Positions 306 to 11,073 of a stretch of 64,000 bases of DNA are shown here, piece by piece (the first letter of the stretch is position 1; the number at the start of each line of letters is the position of its first letter). Both the position numbers and the translations under genes were made by a program. The notes under the pieces are model-generated. The model was not told where the DNA came from. It did no database searches and saw nothing but the letters and a program-made list of their open reading frames with translations. This stretch comes from a virus. Location: positions 1 to 64,000 of IMG/VR virus record IMGVR_UViG_3300022602_000084. One strand, 5' to 3'.

Positions 306-1305
306 AAAAGCCGCACTATTCACCGATATACATTTTGGCCTAAAGTCAAACAGCACTCAACACAACGAGGACTGTTTGAACTTTGTGAAATGGGCAACTA
401 CCAAAGCACGAGAAGAGGGGTGCGAGACTGCACTATTTCTCGGAGATTGGCACAATAATAGGGCCAGTATCAATATACTTACTTTGGGCTATAGCCTACA
501 AGCACTGGAGCATTTGAATGCTAATTTTTCTCGTGTTTATTTTATTCCTGGCAACCATGATCTCTATTATAGGGATAAGCGTGATGTGCAGAGTGTCGAA
601 TGGGCAAAGCATCTCTCAAACGTACAAATTTGTAATGATTGGTTTAGTAGTGGTGATGTGGTTATCGCTCCTTGGCTCTGTGGTGATGACCATCGACGCA
701 TTCCTCGGCTACGAGGAAAGTACATGTTCGGACACTTCGAACTGCCCGGATACCTAATGAATGCCATGGTGGCCATGCCCGAACATGGCGAGCTAAATCG
801 TGATGCTTTTAGGCAGTTTGATCATGTGTTTACCGGACACTTCCACAAGCGACAAACACAACGGAATATAACTTATATTGGAAATTGCTTTCCACACAAT
901 TACGCCGATGCCGGGGATGACGATCGCGGTCTTACCATACTAGAGTGGGGCAAGGAACCCGAGTATCATGCGTGGCCCGACCAACCCCGTTATCGTGTAT
1001 TCAATCTCAGTGATGTGCTTACACATACCGAAGCCATGCTGAGTCCCGGAATGCATGTTAGAGTAAATTTAGATGTAGATATCAGTTACGAGGAATCGAC
1101 CTTTATCAAAGAAACGTTTATTAATACATATAAACTACGTGAAATTACCCTTATACCCGCTAAGGTAACAGACTTAACCGACTACGAAATAGCCGGTAAT
1201 ATTGAATTTGAGTCTGTGGATCAAATAGTATATAGTCAACTTAATACCATAGACAGTAACCAATACAATCCAAATTTGTTGCTGGACATTTATAGGAATC
1301 TGTAA
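289..1305 (+). CDS. 47: gp47-like recombination endonuclease subunit (Mre11/SbcD family)
   Basis: This is the nuclease subunit of the phage Mre11-Rad50 complex, which resects DNA ends for recombination-dependent replication. All metallophosphoesterase metal-binding motifs are present in order: DIH (residues 13-15), GDWHNNR (52-58), GNHD (88-91) and GHFH (183-186). At 338 residues it matches T4 gp47 in size. The ATG at 289 overlaps the preceding gene, and the stop overlaps the start of the next gene as TAATG. In T4-like phages gp47 and gp46 lie close together; here a foreign-looking enzyme gene separates them. Confidence 0.93.
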   Translation: MTNLFKKAALFTDIHFGLKSNSTQHNEDCLNFVKWATTKAREEGCETALFLGDWHNNRASINILTLGYSLQALEHLNANFSRVYFIPGNHDLYYRDKRDVQSVEWAKHLSNVQICNDWFSSGDVVIAPWLCGDDHRRIPRLRGKYMFGHFELPGYLMNAMVAMPEHGELNRDAFRQFDHVFTGHFHKRQTQRNITYIGNCFPHNYADAGDDDRGLTILEWGKEPEYHAWPDQPRYRVFNLSDVLTHTEAMLSPGMHVRVNLDVDISYEESTFIKETFINTYKLREITLIPAKVTDLTDYEIAGNIEFESVDQIVYSQLNTIDSNQYNPNLLLDIYRNL

Positions 1306-2762
1306 TGCAAAATGTTATTACGCGAGATTTTATAAATCCCAATTTTAAATTACAAGGTGATAATAGTTTAATATCAAAAAGTCAATTAGTTGACATGATT
1401 CGGTATTGGAAAATACTGTTGTGGGAAAAGTATCAGCTGCGTAAAGGATCAAAAGTAGGTATTGCATGCCTGGAAGTAGATGCGTATCATATATCATTAA
1501 TTTTTGCTTGCTCCGAATTAGGCTGTCAGTTCGTAAGTTTAGATCATCCTATCTCTCAAGCAACTATAAACAAGACAAAAGCAGCAATGTTTTCTCCAAT
1601 TGATTTAGGTATTGTTGACGATATACTAGTTAAAGATGGGTTGCATCAAAAGATGTTAGAAACTTATTGTAAACAGGTAGCACCGCTAAGTGTATTTGAT
1701 TCGTATAATATTGCCGATCATGGATTATTTTTGACTGTAGCCGATTTTTATTTTTGTCAAGAGGATGATGTGTTGTTTTTGGCATCTACCAGTGGTACCA
1801 CTTCGGAATCGACACGGGTGCCCTATACACACAAATACACGGCACAGTTGTCCGTTAGGAATAGTGTGATTTTTAATCATAAAAATCATAGTCGAGTGAT
1901 ACACACACGAAACATGCATCATGCTAGTAGTCTACTATTGCATTTTTTGCCAACATTATATGCTTGTTCAAATCACTGGCACAAATATTTTAATTCCAAT
2001 GATCACGAATCAATGGATAAATTTATAGACATGTTGATTAATTTCCAGATTAATTTTTGTTTGTTAGATAATCGATTTAATTTAGATTCAATAATTAAAA
2101 AATTAAAATATCGAAAAATATGTTTTGATCATTCAATTGAGTTTAATATCAGCGGCTTTTTATTAGACAGGCAATTGCAAGATAATATTGCCGACCATAA
2201 TATAACAGTAGTATCTACATTTGGTTCGGTAGACACCGGTGTTCCGCTCTTTATTAATCGATTAACTCGTGATACCGATCCGTTTTCATTAACCGACGGA
2301 TTAATTGGATACTTTCCAGATGACGATTTTTATCGTTTAACAATATCAGAAGGATCAGTGCAGGTTGATTGCCCCGGACACTGGCATGCCAGGACCCTGA
2401 ATGATTGTATTAAAGAAAAAAATAACGTATACTATCACTTACATCGAAGTAACACAATTACTTTTGAAAATTTAAGTTTTGATCTAGTTTCATTGACAGG
2501 GTTTGTACAACAACTACTCAATAACACCGATTTATCTGTAGTAGTGGACTTAAAAAATCAATCTTTATATTTGGTTATATGGAACAATTTTGTTACTATC
2601 GAGTTACATGCACTAAAACAAGCACTAATTGATTCTAAATTTAAAAATTGCGCATCATTTTTTAAAAAAATAAAAAATTTAAACAAGAAACAGTTTACCA
2701 TTGACACTAAAGTAAGTGTTGATCAATTAAGGGGATACTTGCAAGCAAATGACACGAATTAA
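1305..2762 (+). CDS. ANL-superfamily adenylate-forming enzyme (AMP-dependent ligase-like)
   Basis: This 485-residue protein looks like an acyl-/aryl-CoA-ligase or adenylation-domain enzyme, which activates a carboxylate as an acyl-AMP. The phosphate-binding motif STSGTTSESTRV is at 161-172, with a HASSLLLHFLP segment after it. STFGSVDTG at 304-312 sits where the A5 motif is expected. HRSNTITFE near 380 resembles the hinge motif, with N replacing the usual D. DTKVSVDQLR near the C terminus places K469 where the A10 catalytic lysine belongs. The fold is therefore complete rather than truncated, but the substrate cannot be read. It lies between gp47 and gp46, starts at the gp47 stop (TAATG), and is more AT-rich than its neighbours, which suggests acquisition. 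No carrier-protein gene is visible nearby. Confidence 0.75.
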   Translation: MQNVITRDFINPNFKLQGDNSLISKSQLVDMIRYWKILLWEKYQLRKGSKVGIACLEVDAYHISLIFACSELGCQFVSLDHPISQATINKTKAAMFSPIDLGIVDDILVKDGLHQKMLETYCKQVAPLSVFDSYNIADHGLFLTVADFYFCQEDDVLFLASTSGTTSESTRVPYTHKYTAQLSVRNSVIFNHKNHSRVIHTRNMHHASSLLLHFLPTLYACSNHWHKYFNSNDHESMDKFIDMLINFQINFCLLDNRFNLDSIIKKLKYRKICFDHSIEFNISGFLLDRQLQDNIADHNITVVSTFGSVDTGVPLFINRLTRDTDPFSLTDGLIGYFPDDDFYRLTISEGSVQVDCPGHWHARTLNDCIKEKNNVYYHLHRSNTITFENLSFDLVSLTGFVQQLLNNTDLSVVVDLKNQSLYLVIWNNFVTIELHALKQALIDSKFKNCASFFKKIKNLNKKQFTIDTKVSVDQLRGYLQANDTN

Positions 2763-2847
2763 AAATTTAACTGTTAAGGAGGCAACAGATTTAAAGAATT
2801 TAAGAATTCTGCCGTGGAAAGATAATTCAATGAGGAACTATAGTTGA
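2749..2847 (+). CDS. Mini-ORF (32 aa) between the ANL enzyme and gp46; possible remnant
   Basis: A 32-residue frame starts with ATG overlapping the last codons of the ANL gene and ends in a TGA that overlaps the gp46 TTG start. Its residues 4-10, IKNLTVK, are identical to residues 4-10 of gp46, and the codons differ only at three third positions. It could be a duplicated and degraded gp46 start left by a rearrangement. Alternatively the phrase LTVKEATDLKNLR looks like the beginning of a GNAT acetyltransferase, so it could be a truncated GNAT gene. It could also simply couple translation into gp46. Confidence 0.35.
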   Translation: MTRIKNLTVKEATDLKNLRILPWKDNSMRNYS

Positions 2848-4613
2848 TTAGTATAAAAAATTTAACCGTGAAGAATTTTATGAGTGTGGGTAATGCTACA
2901 CAAGCCATTGATTTTGATCGACGCGATCTTACACTGGTATTAGGCGAAAACTTAGACCTAGGAGGAGATGATTCGGGTGCACGTAATGGTACGGGCAAGA
3001 CCACTATCATCAATGCTCTTAGCTATGCCTTGTATGGTAATGCTCTTACTAATATTAAAAAAGACAATCTAATCAATAAGACCAATAGTAAAAACATGAT
3101 GGTCACTATTGATTTTGAACAAGAAGGCGAAAGTTATAGGATTGAACGTGGACGTAAACCAAACATAATGCGGTTCTTTGTTGGTAATACCGAACGCGAG
3201 ATAACCGACGAAGCACAAGGCGATAGCAGAGAAACGCAGGCCGAAATAGAACGTATGCTGGGCATGACGCACGAGATGTTCAAACACATTGTGGCACTAA
3301 ACACTTATACTGAACCATTTTTGTCACTCAAGGCAAACGATCAAAGAACTATTATTGAACAGTTGTTGGGCATTACGCTACTCAGCGAAAAGGCAGAATC
3401 ACTCAAAGAACAAATCAAAGCCACTAAGGATGCTATAACACAGGAAGAATTTAGAATCAAGGCAGTCACTGATGCCAATGCACGTATACAAGAACAAATA
3501 GAAAATCTCAAACGCAGACAAACACTGTGGCTTAAAAAACATGACGAAGATTTAGATAAATTGGTTGCGGCTTTTGACGAACTAAATGCACTAGATATTG
3601 AGGCCGAACTAGTCGCCCATCAAAAATTAAACGACTACAACAAGAAAAAAAGTGAAATAGACCGTATTAAAGGCTACATTGCACAGAACGAACGTGACCA
3701 AGCTCGAGAAGACAAAGAACTAAGCAAATTAAAAGCCGAGTTAGAAGCACTACAAAAGCATCAGTGTCATGCCTGCGGACAAGACTTGCATGATGACAAT
3801 CACGAACAGATGGTAACTGACAAGCAACACCAAATCAGTAACACAGCTATCAATGCACTTTCGGCTAACACACAGTGGTTTCAAAATACCGAAACACTAA
3901 AAGCGCTAGGCGAGTTAGGCGACCCTCCTGAAGTATACTATACCAATGAATCAGATGCGTTTGAACATAGAAGTAGTATGGGCAGTATTCTAGCACAATT
4001 AACCGCAAAGCAAGAAGAACTAGATCCTTACAGTGACCAGATTAAGGACATGAGCGAACAAGCATTAGAAGATGTCAATTACGACTTAATGAACGAACTT
4101 GATCGAATTCGTCAACATCAAGAGTTTTTGCATAAATTATTGACTAACAAAGATTCGTTTATACGTAAACGTATCATTGATCAAAACTTAAGTTATCTAA
4201 ATGCACGTTTAGGACAATATCTAGATCGCATAGGATTACCGCATACTGTAAAATTTAACAATGATTTAACTGTAGCAATCAGTGAACTAGGCAGAGAATT
4301 AGACTTTGATAATTTATCAAGAGGCGAGCGTAATAGGCTTATATTGAGTCTAAGTTGGGCATTTAGAGACGTTTGGGAAAGTTTGTATCAACCTATTAAT
4401 TTGTTGTTTATCGACGAGTTGATTGACAGTGGACTAGATGCAAATGGTGTCGAATCTGCGTTGGGTATACTTAAAAAGATGGCAAGAGACAGTAATAAAA
4501 GTATATGGTTAGTATCGCATCGAGAAGAATTAGCAGGACGAGTCCATAATACCCTACATGTGGTCAAAGAAAACGGATTTACTACCTATAACACCGATAT
4601 TGAAATAAATTAA
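2844..4613 (+). CDS. 46: gp46-like recombination endonuclease ATPase (Rad50/SbcC family)
   Basis: This is the SMC-like ATPase partner of gp47. Walker A GARNGTGKTT lies at about 45-54. Two long charged coiled-coil segments flank a CHAC zinc-hook (C-x-x-C) near residue 310. The ABC signature LSRGERNR is near 491, Walker B LLFIDE near 520, a D-loop SGLD just after it, and a switch histidine (LVSHREE) near the C terminus. At 589 residues it is slightly longer than T4 gp46. The start is TTG, supported by GAGG eight bases upstream and by conservation from the first residues. Confidence 0.93.
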   Translation: MISIKNLTVKNFMSVGNATQAIDFDRRDLTLVLGENLDLGGDDSGARNGTGKTTIINALSYALYGNALTNIKKDNLINKTNSKNMMVTIDFEQEGESYRIERGRKPNIMRFFVGNTEREITDEAQGDSRETQAEIERMLGMTHEMFKHIVALNTYTEPFLSLKANDQRTIIEQLLGITLLSEKAESLKEQIKATKDAITQEEFRIKAVTDANARIQEQIENLKRRQTLWLKKHDEDLDKLVAAFDELNALDIEAELVAHQKLNDYNKKKSEIDRIKGYIAQNERDQAREDKELSKLKAELEALQKHQCHACGQDLHDDNHEQMVTDKQHQISNTAINALSANTQWFQNTETLKALGELGDPPEVYYTNESDAFEHRSSMGSILAQLTAKQEELDPYSDQIKDMSEQALEDVNYDLMNELDRIRQHQEFLHKLLTNKDSFIRKRIIDQNLSYLNARLGQYLDRIGLPHTVKFNNDLTVAISELGRELDFDNLSRGERNRLILSLSWAFRDVWESLYQPINLLFIDELIDSGLDANGVESALGILKKMARDSNKSIWLVSHREELAGRVHNTLHVVKENGFTTYNTDIEIN

Positions 4614-4648: not shown

Positions 4649-5083
4649 ATGACATGGCTTTATCAAGGCAACCCCGTAGACAATCTCCCAGAGGACTCTG
4701 TGGGATTTGTCTACATTATTACAAATAATCTATCTGGCAAAAAGTACATAGGCAAAAAACTAGCGAAATTCGCGAAAACCACTTATAAAACTGTAAAACT
4801 CAAAAACGGCACGAAGAAGAAAAAGAAGATACGCAGCAAAATCGACAGTGATTGGCGTGATTATTATGGCTCAAACGACGAACTCAACCGAGACGTCAAA
4901 ACTCATGGCACCGAAAACTTTACCAGAGAAATACTCTATTATTGCAAGAGCAAGGCTGAATGTAGTTACATTGAAGCACGTGAACAGTTCACAAACAAAG
5001 TATTAGAAAGTACAGATTATTATAACGGACACATACAGGTCCGTGTGCATGGCTCCCATATACTAAACAAACTCAACGGATAA
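4649..5083 (+). CDS. GIY-YIG endonuclease, probably a free-standing homing nuclease
   Basis: The 144-residue protein has the GIY-YIG core: VGFVYIITN (18-26) followed by KKYIGKK, then a lysine-rich stretch, an Arg in SDWRDYYGS and a Glu in the helix YIEAREQF, which are the expected catalytic residues. T4-like phages carry related Seg-type mobile nucleases that cut DNA of competing phages and spread their own genes. It lies 35 bp after gp46 and directly before a structured non-coding region. No host gene is visibly interrupted, so an intron association is possible but not shown. Confidence 0.75.
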   Translation: MTWLYQGNPVDNLPEDSVGFVYIITNNLSGKKYIGKKLAKFAKTTYKTVKLKNGTKKKKKIRSKIDSDWRDYYGSNDELNRDVKTHGTENFTREILYYCKSKAECSYIEAREQFTNKVLESTDYYNGHIQVRVHGSHILNKLNG

Positions 5084-5534: not shown

Positions 5535-5765
5535 TTAGAAGAAGGGAAGTCCTGACTCCTTGGTGGTTTCCATGTTTTTCTTGATAATACCTCCAATGAT
5601 TTCGCGTTCTTGAAGGCTTAAGTTCAACGAGTCTTCGTAACTTAGCCCACCTCGCATGAACCAAATCATTCTCAACGCTTCTTCTTTTATGGCCCTTGAC
5701 TCTTTATCGTAACGTTCTAATTCTTCAACGATAGCGTCATTGTCTAGAGTTAAGAGCCGATTCCG
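5535..5765 (-). CDS. 51: gp51-like tail assembly protein, expressed as a -1 frameshift extension of gp26
   Basis: This frame encodes 76 residues ending in METTKESGLPFF, with FMRGGLSYEDSLNLS in the middle, which I recognise as the gp51-like protein that follows gp26 in T4-like phages. The frame has no ATG, GTG or TTG before TTG 5675 and ATG 5669, and those would discard the first 30 or so residues, which look coding (DAIVEELERYDKESRAIK). A stop lies 5' of the frame inside gp26. Entry is explained by a -1 shift at TTTTTTC (5771 to 5765) at gp26 codons 281-282, giving a 358-residue fusion. Internal initiation at 5669/5675 is the alternative. Confidence 0.7.
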   Translation of the reverse strand, partial: RNRLLTLDNDAIVEELERYDKESRAIKEEALRMIWFMRGGLSYEDSLNLSLQEREIIGGIIKKNMETTKESGLPFF

Positions 5766-6610
5766 AAAAAATTCGAGTAGTCAAACTCCAATGGTAGCTG
5801 AAATTCCTTGGTACACGATGTACAGGCAATTCTTGGTGCTTTAATTGCACCTTCGCGATTGAGTTCGGCCAGTCGTTCTTGAACCAACTTGGTGATTTTG
5901 CCGTCGGTGTTTTCGTAAAACTCGCGTATGTGTTCGGGTTTGGCGACTCGCGAACCATCGTCGAGTTCGATGTATTCGGTGCTGCTGGTAACAATGTCCA
6001 AGCCAATGTCTACCAGCACACCCATGCTTCGATTAATTTGAGTGGCCTTGACCTCGAGGTCAAGTGATTCGTCGTTTAACGAATTCATGATTCGATTTTC
6101 TTCAAACGTGACCACGTTCTTTTTGTTGATGTTGAAAAACTGTTGCGGGCAGATTTTTATTTTTAAATCACCAACTTCGATCTTTTGCGAATAGTCGGGA
6201 GTGACTATGTTGTTCAATACCTGTTGCAAATCAACGGTGTTGTTGTTTTCAGAGTTACAGTGCGGACACAAACTGTCCACATCCATGTCGTTTTTGTAGC
6301 TGGCAATGCGTATACCGATCAAGACAGCATCAATATCGATACTGGGCATTTTCCAAGGATCCACGATACTGGGGCAACAACTGTGCACGATTTCCACAAT
6401 GCTGCTGCCGTTCATGAGTGCATCGGGTGTGCGTAAGGTAATTTCGTCCCGTGCAGTCATGGGGTAAACTGGTATTTCTCCAGTAACCGGCAAATTGAGA
6501 CTACCGTCGGGCCAATACTGTCCGTTTGACGGCAGTTTCATGTGAATTGCCGGTTGTCTAAAGTACTTGGCTAGTGGGTTTGCTTTTGCAGCCGATTGAG
6601 TATTTTCCAT
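5750..6610 (-). CDS. 26: gp26-like baseplate hub / tail assembly protein
   Basis: The 286-residue product matches the gp26 family layout: an N-terminal region with VYPMTARDEI, a central ID(I/V)D...GIRIAS segment, and two Cys pairs (C115/C118 and C263/C266) that could bind zinc, ending in FDYSNFFG. T4 gp26 is a baseplate hub assembly protein. It is on the minus strand, back to back with the tape measure gene, and has its own TATAAATA late promoter 34 bp upstream. Its last codons contain the frameshift heptamer that joins it to gp51. Together with the position beside the tape measure this suggests a role as tail assembly chaperone. Confidence 0.8.
   Translation of the reverse strand: MENTQSAAKANPLAKYFRQPAIHMKLPSNGQYWPDGSLNLPVTGEIPVYPMTARDEITLRTPDALMNGSSIVEIVHSCCPSIVDPWKMPSIDIDAVLIGIRIASYKNDMDVDSLCPHCNSENNNTVDLQQVLNNIVTPDYSQKIEVGDLKIKICPQQFFNINKKNVVTFEENRIMNSLNDESLDLEVKATQINRSMGVLVDIGLDIVTSSTEYIELDDGSRVAKPEHIREFYENTDGKITKLVQERLAELNREGAIKAPRIACTSCTKEFQLPLEFDYSNFFGIGS
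5765..5771 (-). promoter_or_regulatory. Predicted -1 ribosomal frameshift site T TTT TTC
   Basis: In the gp26 frame the codons read TTT TTC preceded by T, a canonical X-XXY-YYZ heptamer. A -1 slip leads straight into the gp51 frame with CGG as next codon, while zero-frame translation ends at TAA four codons later. GGAG lies 14 bases upstream and could act as a stimulatory internal ribosome-binding sequence. Phage P2 uses the near-identical T TTT TTG for its tail-assembly E/E+E' frameshift. Confidence 0.65.
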
Positions 6611-6674: not shown

Positions 6675-9323
6675 ATGGCACTAGATCCATCCGACTCAGC
6701 CATACTGGCACAGGCCGTTGCACAGGGCATGAAAGCCTACCACGAAGTGGGCGGGGCATCCGGCACCGGTAAAGGCAAATTTGTTACTGTTGCGGATCTA
6801 TCAGGCAACGCCGAACAGTTCAAAAAGGCTCTGCAAAATCTCACACACAATGTCAAGGATGCAGCAGTAGCTTCAAAATCGGCCTTTAACGATGTGATCT
6901 CGGCCTTCAAGGGTGGTGCAGTGTCCATGATGGACAACTCGCATGAACTAGACAAACTCAACGAGGCACTCAAAGAATCACAAACCAACATGAAGTCGGC
7001 AGCAGCCGCCAACGATGCTGCCAACATAGCATTGGAACAGAGTCGCCAAACCGAAATCAAGAAAACCAAGGCCGCCATAATTGGTATTCAAGTGGCTCAA
7101 AATTTGACCGCAGTCACTGCCGGGGTTATCAATGCTTATGTTGATTATCAGTATGCCTTAAAGAGTCTGCAGTTAGACTACGAAGCTGCACTCATTGGCG
7201 GTAAATCGGCAATAGATACCTACACCGATACTGTCAAAGGTGGCATGGATGCACAGACCGAATTGCGAAGCAGTTTATACCAAGTGGAAGAAGCTGCTGG
7301 TGGTGCGGCATTTGCCTTGGGCTTGATGTTGCCGGGATGGGGCAAAATACTGTCGTTGTTGGGCCTAGCTTTATCGGCTTGGGCAGGAGTCAACGATCGC
7401 GATCAAAAGAAACAAAACGAATTTCAGAAAAAGAATCTAGAAAACCTACGTGCCGAACTAAACAAAACAATTGATTCTTACAAACTGATCACGGAATCGG
7501 GCGGAGCTCTTGCTGGCGGCATGACCGAAATGAACGTTCTTGCCATCAAGTCTGGGTATGGTGTTAAATTATTTGGCGAAGGGTTAAAACTAAGCCGAGA
7601 CAGTATACAAAAATTGGGCATGAGTTACGATGATTCGGTACAGTTGTTGTCTAGATTTGGACAAGCTCTGCATAAAGATTACAAAGCCGGCGGAGATCTT
7701 GCCATGCAATTGGACAAGTTGGGTTGGGCCGGCGAGCACCAAATTGAAATAATGGCCGAAGTATCGGCCAAATTGAAAATGTCCGGAGATGAAAGATACA
7801 ACAACGAACAATTTGTCGCAGCACAAAGCGTTGAGTATGCCAAGACATTAAAAGTGATGACTTTAATAACTGGACAAAATGCCAAAGATGCACTCAAGAA
7901 GGCACAACAAGAATCCTTAGAAGCCGGCTTATTTGCCAAATTTGGCGGTGTTAAAGGTGCAACAGATAAACTAACTCAACAGATTGCTCAAGCCGAAACT
8001 GGGTTGGGAGCTGGCTATAAAGCCATGTATGTGGATTATATGCGTCTAGGACGATTCCGTGGTGCAGCAGCCAATATAATTGCTGACTCGGTTCCGCAAA
8101 TTAGACAAGAATTAGACTATCAAAAAGCACTCTTGAACGACACCACCAAAACTGCCGACGAGCAAAGTAAGTTATTATCTGAATCCAACGAGCGTATTAA
8201 ATTGGGTATACGAGGATATACGGCACAAAATCAATCACAAATTGATGCCTTAGCTCAAGCCGAGCAAAGCAGCGGTACCACTAAAGAAATGCTGGAAATA
8301 CTTAGTGGTGCAATACAACACAGTACCGGTGTGTACAAAGGCCAAGCAATTGACGCAGCAAAAATAGCCGAAACATCGGCGACCAACAAAGCCAAATTGG
8401 ATGATGCAGTTGCTCGAGCACAAGAAAATCAAGTGCAGGCCTTTGCCGATATGGATAAAAAAATGTCGGCATCGGTTGAGGATTTTGCCCAAAACATTGC
8501 CGACACCAAGGGCGGATTTGATGCATTGTTGACATCCATGGGAGCATTTGGCGATACACTAAATCCAAAGAGTATGTGGCAAAAGTTTGTGGACTATGCT
8601 AAAGGTTCTGGTGCAGCTACTGCACAAAGAATGCATGACCTAGGTCATGGGCGTACCAATGTTGGCTTACAAAATGCCACTGTATCTGGTGGAGGTGGAG
8701 CAGCACCGCAGTTTCGCAGAATGACCGAAGGCGGTGCTGCTGGTGCTGCTGGTGCACCTGGAGGGGCCAGCCCAAGATCGCTAGCCGACATTATTTCATT
8801 TGGTGGCAATACTGGAGACGAAGCACATTTCCGCCAAGCCGATCCTGCGTTGCAAGGTGCGTTTGTTGCAATGGCTCAAGAATATTATGAAAAGACAAAG
8901 AAAAAACTTCACATCAACAGTGCTTTTAGAAGTTTGCAAGAACAAACTAATGTAGTATCAACGTCGGGAATGAAGGCCAAACCCGGACATAGTTTACACG
9001 AACGTGGCAAGGCATTAGACATTAACAGTAGCGAAGTTGCCGAATTATCGGCCATGGGCTTGTTGGAACGATACAAATTTAACACCTTAGCCGGAGATCC
9101 AATGCATATCCAAATGGCCGACAATGGTGCCAATTTGGGAGTAGGCGACAGTGCTATTGTTGGTGAGATGGGTCCGGAAATTGTGTCCGGACCGGGATCG
9201 GTTACATCTAGATCGCAAACAAGTCAGGTGTTTGCTGAAATGACTAGAACACTGAAAGAAATCAGTAACACGCTCAAAAATAGCCACAGTGTGGCACGCA
9301 AAACTTTAAATGCAGTAGCCTAA
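6675..9323 (+). CDS. Tape measure protein with C-terminal M15-type peptidase domain
   Basis: An 882-residue protein with the usual tape measure make-up: an Ala/Lys/Asp-rich helical N-terminal half, a strongly hydrophobic segment near 209-238 (GLMLPGWGKILSLLGLALSAW), then long amphipathic helices. From about residue 740 there is a different domain with INSAFRS, SLHERGKALD (about 773-782) and DPMHIQM (about 809), which is the zinc-ligand pattern (SxHxxGxAxD ... H) of M15 D,D-/L,D-carboxypeptidases of the VanY type. It would cut peptidoglycan peptides during DNA entry. T4 gp29, the positional equivalent, is only about 590 residues and lacks this domain. Back-to-back position with gp26/gp51 supports the tape measure call. 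Confidence 0.8.
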   Translation: MALDPSDSAILAQAVAQGMKAYHEVGGASGTGKGKFVTVADLSGNAEQFKKALQNLTHNVKDAAVASKSAFNDVISAFKGGAVSMMDNSHELDKLNEALKESQTNMKSAAAANDAANIALEQSRQTEIKKTKAAIIGIQVAQNLTAVTAGVINAYVDYQYALKSLQLDYEAALIGGKSAIDTYTDTVKGGMDAQTELRSSLYQVEEAAGGAAFALGLMLPGWGKILSLLGLALSAWAGVNDRDQKKQNEFQKKNLENLRAELNKTIDSYKLITESGGALAGGMTEMNVLAIKSGYGVKLFGEGLKLSRDSIQKLGMSYDDSVQLLSRFGQALHKDYKAGGDLAMQLDKLGWAGEHQIEIMAEVSAKLKMSGDERYNNEQFVAAQSVEYAKTLKVMTLITGQNAKDALKKAQQESLEAGLFAKFGGVKGATDKLTQQIAQAETGLGAGYKAMYVDYMRLGRFRGAAANIIADSVPQIRQELDYQKALLNDTTKTADEQSKLLSESNERIKLGIRGYTAQNQSQIDALAQAEQSSGTTKEMLEILSGAIQHSTGVYKGQAIDAAKIAETSATNKAKLDDAVARAQENQVQAFADMDKKMSASVEDFAQNIADTKGGFDALLTSMGAFGDTLNPKSMWQKFVDYAKGSGAATAQRMHDLGHGRTNVGLQNATVSGGGGAAPQFRRMTEGGAAGAAGAPGGASPRSLADIISFGGNTGDEAHFRQADPALQGAFVAMAQEYYEKTKKKLHINSAFRSLQEQTNVVSTSGMKAKPGHSLHERGKALDINSSEVAELSAMGLLERYKFNTLAGDPMHIQMADNGANLGVGDSAIVGEMGPEIVSGPGSVTSRSQTSQVFAEMTRTLKEISNTLKNSHSVARKTLNAVA

Positions 9324-9360: not shown

Positions 9361-11073
9361 ATGGCCGGCTGGAAAAAGTATTTTAAAACAAGCAATCTAC
9401 CAAGCAACATCAGTCCCTTGGGCGGCGGACGCCAACCCGATCCCGGTATGCGTAACTACCAAAGTCAATTGCCCGAAGTGTATATTGGACATCCCAACCG
9501 TGTGGAACGTTACAATCAGTACGAACAAATGGACATGGACAGCGAGGTCAATGCTGCCCTGGACATTTTGGCCGAGTTCATGACTCAAAAGAACGAAGAC
9601 AATCACACCAGCTTTAGATTAAAGTTCAAAGAAACTCCCAGCGACAACGAAGTAAAAATACTCAAAGAACAACTGCAACAATGGGTCAGCCTTAACGAAT
9701 TTAACAAGCGTACATTCAAGATTGTGCGTAACGTGATCAAGTACGGAGACCAAGTGTTTATTCGCGATCCTGAAACATTCAAACTGATGTGGACCGAAAT
9801 GAGCAAGGTTACCAAAGTGATTGTGAACGAAGGCGAAGGCAAAAAGCCCGAGCAGTACCTAATCAAAGACTTGAATCCCAATTTTCAAAATTTGACCATG
9901 ACCGCAGTGGCCACAACAGACACCTACATGAATCATCCACAAACTGGTGGACCCAGCGGTGCTTATGTGCAACCACAAACACCGTTTGGTGGTGGTTCGA
10001 GATTTAGTCATGCCAAAAACGAAGCAGCAATTGCTGCCGAACACGTGGTGCATATCAGTTTAACCGAGGGCCTGGATGTGTTTTGGCCGTTTGGCAACAG
10101 TGTGTTGGAAAACATTTTCAAAGTGTTCAAGCAAAAAGAATTGCTCGAAGATTCGATCATTATCTATCGTATACAACGTGCCCCAGAACGTCGAGTATTC
10201 AAAATAGATGTGGGCAACATGCCCAGTCACATGGCCATGGCATTTGTGGATCGTATTAAAAACGAAATACATCAGCGTAGAATCCCAACACAATCGGGTA
10301 CTGGTACCAATGCCAACATGATGGACGCCACCTACAATCCGTTAAGCCAAAACGAAGATTACTTTTTCCCAGTCACAAGTGAGGGAAGAGGAAGCAGTGT
10401 GGAAGTATTCCCGGGCGGTACCAACTTGGGCGAGATCACAGACTTACGCTTCTTTACCAATAAACTGTTCCGTGGTTTGCGTATTCCCTCAAGCTATTTG
10501 CCTACCACTGCCGATGATGGTAGCCAAGCATACACAGATGGTAGAGTAGGCACTGCCTTGATACAAGAATGGCGTTTTAATCAATACTGTCAGCGTTTAC
10601 AACAAATGATTTGCGAGGCACTGGACCGAGAATTCAAATTGTTTATGCGTTGGAGAGGGTTCAACATCGACGGCAGTTTATTTGACTTGGCGTTTAACGA
10701 GCCACAAAACTTTGCACAATATCGTCAAGCCGACATTGATGCTGCACGTATAGCTACATTTACACAACTGGAACAGTATCCGTATCTTTCCAAACGTTTC
10801 TTAATGAAACGCTATTTGGGCATGACCGAACAAGAGATTAGCGAGAACGAACAGGCCTGGGCCGAAGAACGTGGCGATGTAGAAACAGCACCGGCCGAAA
10901 ATCCTGGACTACGAGGAGTTGGCGTGAGCCCGGGCGGTATACAGAGTGATTTAGACAACTTGGGCGGAGAAGCACCCGCAGGCGAAGCCGGAGCTGGTGT
11001 TGCCGAACCAGGTGCAGCCGGCCCTGGAGCCGGAGCCGGCGTCAATGCTGGTGCAGCGGCCGCTGGTCTTTAA
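9361..11073 (+). CDS. 20: gp20 portal vertex protein
   Basis: This 570-residue protein is the dodecameric portal through which DNA enters and leaves the head. Characteristic stretches are YEQMDMDSEVNAALDILAEF near the N terminus, IKYGDQVFIRDPE, RAPERRVFKIDVGNMP and YFFPVTSEGRGSSVE followed by FFTNKLFRGLRIPSSYL, all typical of T4-like gp20. The last 60 residues form an Ala/Gly/Pro-rich tail not needed for the fold. Length is close to T4 gp20 (524). It opens the head gene operon 20-core-21-22-23. Confidence 0.95.
   Translation: MAGWKKYFKTSNLPSNISPLGGGRQPDPGMRNYQSQLPEVYIGHPNRVERYNQYEQMDMDSEVNAALDILAEFMTQKNEDNHTSFRLKFKETPSDNEVKILKEQLQQWVSLNEFNKRTFKIVRNVIKYGDQVFIRDPETFKLMWTEMSKVTKVIVNEGEGKKPEQYLIKDLNPNFQNLTMTAVATTDTYMNHPQTGGPSGAYVQPQTPFGGGSRFSHAKNEAAIAAEHVVHISLTEGLDVFWPFGNSVLENIFKVFKQKELLEDSIIIYRIQRAPERRVFKIDVGNMPSHMAMAFVDRIKNEIHQRRIPTQSGTGTNANMMDATYNPLSQNEDYFFPVTSEGRGSSVEVFPGGTNLGEITDLRFFTNKLFRGLRIPSSYLPTTADDGSQAYTDGRVGTALIQEWRFNQYCQRLQQMICEALDREFKLFMRWRGFNIDGSLFDLAFNEPQNFAQYRQADIDAARIATFTQLEQYPYLSKRFLMKRYLGMTEQEISENEQAWAEERGDVETAPAENPGLRGVGVSPGGIQSDLDNLGGEAPAGEAGAGVAEPGAAGPGAGAGVNAGAAAAGL

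Follow-up and report, generated by a model that had tools for sequence, protein, structure and literature searches.

A predicted frameshifted tail assembly chaperone locus in a T4-related myophage

The locus and its neighbours

The window analysed here is a 64,000-nt stretch of viral DNA (positions 1 to 64,000 of IMG/VR record IMGVR_UViG_3300022602_000084). It encodes a gp26-like gene that is overlapped at its 3' end by a -1 frame; we predict that the two supply the short form (TAC-N) and the C-terminal module (TAC-C) of a pair of tail assembly chaperones (TACs). The features of the locus, with the grounds for each, are as follows.

5750..6610, minus strand: gp26-like gene, predicted short chaperone TAC-N; ORF of 286 aa with two CxxC pairs
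5765..5771, minus strand: slippery heptamer T_TTT_TTC; codons AAT TTT TTC (280-282), four codons ahead of the gp26 TAA
5535..5765, minus strand: -1 frame with TAC-C, the C-terminal module; 76 aa and a stop codon; dN/dS, alignment and AlphaFold2
5535..6610, minus strand: 358-aa TAC-NC predicted from the frameshift; relatives align without a break over the junction
5746..5758, minus strand: 5' side of the RNA stem, GGCUCUU at 5758-5752 plus an inner extension; 6 nt past the heptamer
5691..5703, minus strand: 3' side of the stem, AAGGGCC at 5697-5691 plus an inner extension; pairs with GGCUCUU
6675..9323, plus strand: probable tape measure gene with an 882-aa product, arranged back to back with the TAC-N gene; position, size, PHROG 13118 and synteny
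9361..11073, plus strand: T4-type portal protein gp20, directly after the tape measure gene; PF07230, E 9e-103

The gp26-like protein matches PF12322 (T4_baseplate) with 45.3 bits, above the curated Pfam cut-off of 24.5, and PHROG 150 with an E value of 1.2e-16. No other PF12322 match occurs in the record, a 67-kb fragment. The AlphaFold2 model of TAC-N (pLDDT 88) resembles predicted T4-like baseplate hub assembly proteins in a structure search, and a search of the PDB with it gave no match. The gene ends in the codons AAT TTT TTC GGA ATC GGC TCT TAA.

The divergent ORF at 6675-9323 is probably the tape measure gene, judging from its position, its size and the annotation of its counterparts. 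In the PA5oct record the counterpart is annotated as a structural protein detected by mass spectrometry, and in the RaK2 record it is noted as tape-measure-like; a search of the PA5oct literature for an annotated tape measure gave nothing useful. The back-to-back arrangement with gp26, as originally proposed, is common in relatives: a divergent ORF of at least 600 aa starts within 150 nt of the chaperone gene in 101 of 105 testable distinct loci, and where complete it measures 645-1193 aa (median 777). Atu_ph07, XacN1, CM1 and Vibrio 2.275.O do not have the presumed tape measure gene next to the chaperone gene. Towards its C-terminus (residues about 709-814) the tape-measure-like protein of the window has a VanY/M15-like peptidase stretch, with PHROG 13118 matching at residues 709-814 and VanY falling just under the Pfam cut-off, which suggests that the tape measure incorporates a cell-wall enzyme.

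Two other nearby genes were noted. Just past the 3' end of the chaperone gene, and convergent with it, lies a SegE-type GIY-YIG homing endonuclease gene (4649-5083, plus strand; PF19835, E 9e-34). A homologue of AMP-binding (adenylate-forming) enzymes (485 aa; 1305-2762, plus strand; PF00501, E 2.8e-6, slightly under the Pfam cut-off) is flanked by a metallophosphatase gene in a gp47-like position (289-1305) and a gp46-like SMC/AAA gene (2844-4613), an unusual cargo among recombination-nuclease genes.

Relatives are widespread among large phages. A tblastn search of phage records identified 62 records, nearly all of them jumbo myophages, including Atu_ph07, Phosso, PA5oct, GAP32, RaK2, 121Q, XacN1 and their relatives; many of the alignments end at query residue 282, which is the slip site. 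Scans of IMG/VR provided 128 loci, a few of which duplicate one and the same contig, from a set of at least 592 with a relative. The bacterial genome contigs searched contained none.

The slip site and the -1 frame

The TTTTTTC at 5771-5765 stands in the phase needed for tandem -1 slippage. The original prediction had placed this heptamer just before the gp26 stop, and it is indeed in phase there and leads into a 76-codon -1 frame. Its conservation in relatives, proposed as a check on the prediction, goes far beyond chance. T_TTT_TT[C/T] is kept in the same phase in 139 of 139 loci that retain the 3' end of the gene; in the 114 that are both distinct and complete, it lies 1-11 codons from the stop and the -1 frame is open for 70-80 codons past the slip. 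Three loci fall outside the 139: L112 and L143 are truncated before the slip site, and L045 has an early stop. Across the 139, the codon before the FF dipeptide encodes eight different amino acids yet always has T as its last base, and among 128 FF dipeptides at other places in these loci just 12 have the heptamer. Selection therefore acts on the nucleotides, and not on the FF alone.

The same motif occurs at the same FF, with a -1 frame, in the cyanophages S-PM2 and S-SSM2 and in phiM7, AS-zj, QD01, OLIVR5 and Xanthomonas X1. No in-phase T_TTT_TT[C/T] was found in PG7 (Tevenvirinae), pertopsoe (Ackermannviridae), Vibrio D504 or SP-15. Vibrio D504 and pertopsoe (L152 2170-2230, L154 2190-2250) lack the heptamer, yet have a module-like -1 frame after the gp26 stop; these two may use another slip signal.

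The window has 82 ORFs that reach 100 aa or more. An X_XXY_YYZ heptamer of any kind falls within the last 15 codons of 8 of them, and just two of these eight open 60 or more codons in the -1 frame: the gp26-like gene and the tape-measure ORF. The latter has TTTAAAT near its 3' end (window about 9303-9320, plus strand), opening a 90-codon -1 frame. We rejected it as a slip site: it is present in the close relative L017 and absent from the more distant L019, L021, L051 and L053, so it is probably there by chance.

The -1 frame of the chaperone locus is limited upstream by a stop just ahead of LLEFF, after which the heptamer follows. Past the slip it reads RNRLLTLD...SGLPFF, 76 aa, to a stop ending at 5535, and its first possible starts, a TTG and an ATG, lie about 32-34 codons past the slip, inside the conserved part. 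The window thus has both the upstream stop inside gp26 and the lack of a start before the conserved middle of the frame that were first noted. The name gp51 originally given to this frame holds in part: the C-terminal module is present, but a whole gp51 is not, since T4 gp51 is a full-length protein with N- and C-terminal parts.

The frame evolves as a protein under purifying selection, and both frames are constrained. For the part after the gp26 stop, 26 sequence pairs sharing no member gave a dN/dS of 0.12 in the -1 frame, as against 1.3 and 2.2 in the other two frames, which contain hundreds of stops. The alignment of relatives is unbroken across the junction and begins at the first residue after the slip. 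These are the properties of a frameshifted chaperone: a slippery heptamer that stands in phase close to the 3' end of TAC-N and is shared by relatives, and an overlapping -1 frame under protein-level selection with no start of its own.

The AlphaFold2 model of TAC-C is helical (pLDDT 89). Searched by itself against Pfam and PHROG the module had no convincing family match, and a BFVD structure search gave none; among queries containing TAC-C, only the CBB fusion matches PHROG 18291, a family of split-off small ORFs. In the public records of GAP32, XbC2, 121Q, CBB and Phosso the module is annotated as a separate hypothetical gene (split-gene annotations at L006 4373-4549, L010 4349-4546, L011 4328-4537, L012 4373-4549 and L002 4855-5085), and those of PA5oct and RaK2 have nothing annotated there. 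Our reading corrects the annotation of a gene pair that public jumbo phage records split or miss.

Such records, with small genes such as GAP32_242, 121Q 595 and XbC2_245, agree with a reading of TAC-C as a separate small protein that starts internally at ATG 5669, TTG 5675 or the Met of the motif WxMRGG, which is invariant in the window's clade. Against this, the PA5oct -1 frame has no ATG, GTG or TTG anywhere, the absence of start codons for which the original check looked in relatives. A Shine-Dalgarno sequence precedes the WxMRGG Met in 9% of cases, a rate near that of random sites (11%) and far below that of the TAC-N start (59%), and the residues ahead of this Met are also constrained (dN/dS 0.20) in an alignment that begins at the slip. 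An internal start would also leave the conserved heptamer unexplained. The startless PA5oct frame, the lack of a Shine-Dalgarno signal and the constrained upstream residues together make separate initiation very unlikely. Breaks in frame from sequencing or assembly errors, or from gene decay, are common in metagenomic contigs, but this arrangement recurs in the genomes of cultured phages and in more than 100 distinct loci, and purifying selection acts on both frames; we regard such an origin as practically negligible.

A conserved RNA stem downstream of the heptamer

Six bases past the heptamer, GGCUCUU can pair with AAGGGCC to form a stem that in the window measures 68 nt between its outer ends. 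In most members of the clade this stem has an unbroken run of 7-16 pairs, with arms about 50 nt apart that often enclose a second helix. We analysed covariation in 81 distinct ungapped sequences by mutual information with average-product correction. The two strongest covarying column pairs overall (21-74, z 13.1; 18-77, z 8.3) both fall on the stem, by a statistic that is not phylogeny-corrected and in arms that are also protein-coding, and several more of the leading pairs fall on it as well. Pairing at the stem is 83%, compared with at most 65% at any other register tested, and double compensatory changes are frequent, such as CG for TA at pair 18-77 in 26 sequences.

Since the two strongest covariation signals fall on its pairs, we consider the stem a putative and probable frameshift stimulator. 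In a free-energy scan with 85-nt windows the slip region was the most stable position of its gene in just 7 of the 31 distinct loci, and it was unremarkable in the window, so it is conservation and covariation that speak for the stem. This downstream element, also a mark of frameshifted chaperone genes, is present as a covarying stem in the clade and is weak or absent in some relatives, namely L022, L023, L047 and the RaK2 group. The close relatives L022, L023 and L047 keep the heptamer and have lost the stem, so slipping there must manage without it or use another signal. Different stems occur in a similar place in XacN1, PA5oct and S-PM2.

A broader proposal is that the stem is an undescribed, widely conserved stimulatory RNA for chaperone frameshifting in T4-like phages, that XacN1, PA5oct and cyanophages use unrelated stems in its place at a similar distance, and that the stem sets the ratio of TAC-N to TAC-NC. 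We put this forward tentatively, as a close call on which we lean slightly to the doubtful side.

Predicted products and comparison with known systems

We infer that translation of the gp26-like gene would mostly end at its stop, giving the short chaperone TAC-N, and that a minority of ribosomes would slip back one base on T_TTT_TTC, probably aided by the long-range RNA stem. These would make TAC-NC, whose C-terminal module is helical and 76 residues long. If lambda gpG/gpGT are a guide, TAC-N may coat the tape measure protein encoded at 6675-9323 and TAC-NC may recruit the tail tube protein. The original prediction of a -1 frameshift that yields a chaperone pair, gp26 and gp26-51, is strongly supported by the heptamer, kept in relatives together with its phase, and by selection on the -1 frame, the startless frame of PA5oct, the covarying stem and synteny. 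Judged from its sequence, the locus very probably encodes the tail assembly chaperones of a T4-related myophage, with gp26 as TAC-N and the -1 fusion as a predicted TAC-NC.

Two alternatives concern what the fusion does and how it arises. The frameshift could be real and its products serve as structural components of the baseplate hub instead of as chaperones of the tape measure: members of the family carry baseplate hub annotation, CBB gp26 is annotated as a structural protein, and genetic work puts gp26 in the T4 hub (PMC3004832). However, T4 gp26 and gp51 appear in a list of chaperones for hub assembly, with gp51 required yet missing from the final particle (PMC3004832); the T4-like genes are treated as TACs (PMC10885494, PMC12846349). 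The tail assembly chaperone reading fits because of the design of a short and a long form and the tape measure neighbourhood, and we judge hub parts unlikely. Slippage of RNA polymerase on the T run, in place of ribosomes, could also produce the fusion, and a homopolymer run is present in every case. The run is just six or seven T, though; its codon phase never changes, which is what tandem tRNA slippage demands; and a covarying RNA stem stands at a fixed short distance past it. Polymerase slippage is accordingly a highly improbable source of the fusion, and we retain ribosomal frameshifting.

Lambda gpG/gpGT and P2 E/E+E' are compared here by mechanism only. Relative to both, the short form in the window carries CxxC pairs and has roughly double the length, and the tape measure gene stands in divergent orientation. 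Lambda also slips on a sequence other than the T_TTT_TTC of the window. The TAC loci of Pakpunavirus and Andersonviridae, compared by slip site and frame, likewise have a T-rich conserved slip site near the end of TAC-N, with the motif GTTTTT where the window has TTTTTTC, and their -1 frame is annotated as a separate gene or left intergenic, as in the relatives of the window (PMC12846349).

The comparison with T4 is direct, as the same two proteins are encoded there by two genes and would come in the window phage from one gene with a slip site. T4 gp26 is the short form; it ends in KEFFELL, with FF coded TTC TTT and no heptamer. T4 gp51 is the long form in one frame, the same PF12322 domain followed by a C-terminal tail, the end of which resembles the TAC-C module (GLSYEDSLNLSLQEREIIGGIIKKNM) in a single, short alignment. 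A separate gp51 without a slip site in T4 and the Tevenvirinae is therefore compatible with frameshifting in the window, since T4 gp51 is that long form. The T4 arrangement pairs a second full-length gene with the absence of a slip site, and the window has a slip site. On the simplest reading, the frameshifted gene is ancestral and was replaced by two genes in the T4 group.

A study of T4-like phages by Vladimirov and colleagues reportedly described frameshifting in several groups and named genes 26 and 51 in T4. The original prediction did not know such a pair to be described for T4 itself. For T4-like phages the idea is not new: Vladimirov, Gautam and Davidson 2022 (Virology 566:9-15) is already cited for T4-like tail assembly chaperone genes (PMC10885494, PMC12846349). 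Some T4-like phages have separate short and long TAC genes in place of frameshifting (PMC10885494), and poly-T is a known slippery signal in T4-like TAC-N genes (PMC12846349). A frameshifted TAC pair is thus already known in kind from T4-like and other phages. As far as these citing papers convey that work, the window's locus is like its T4-like TACs in the PF12322 family, the poly-T slip site at the 3' end of TAC-N and the short and long pair. It differs in belonging to a separate, mostly metagenomic clade near Atu_ph07 and Phosso, and perhaps in the conserved long-range stem that is a feature of this clade. This stem and the extent of the clade may be new. The locus extends frameshifted tail chaperones to a large, mainly metagenomic phage clade and offers, in the covarying stem, a testable candidate for control of the ratio of short to long form.
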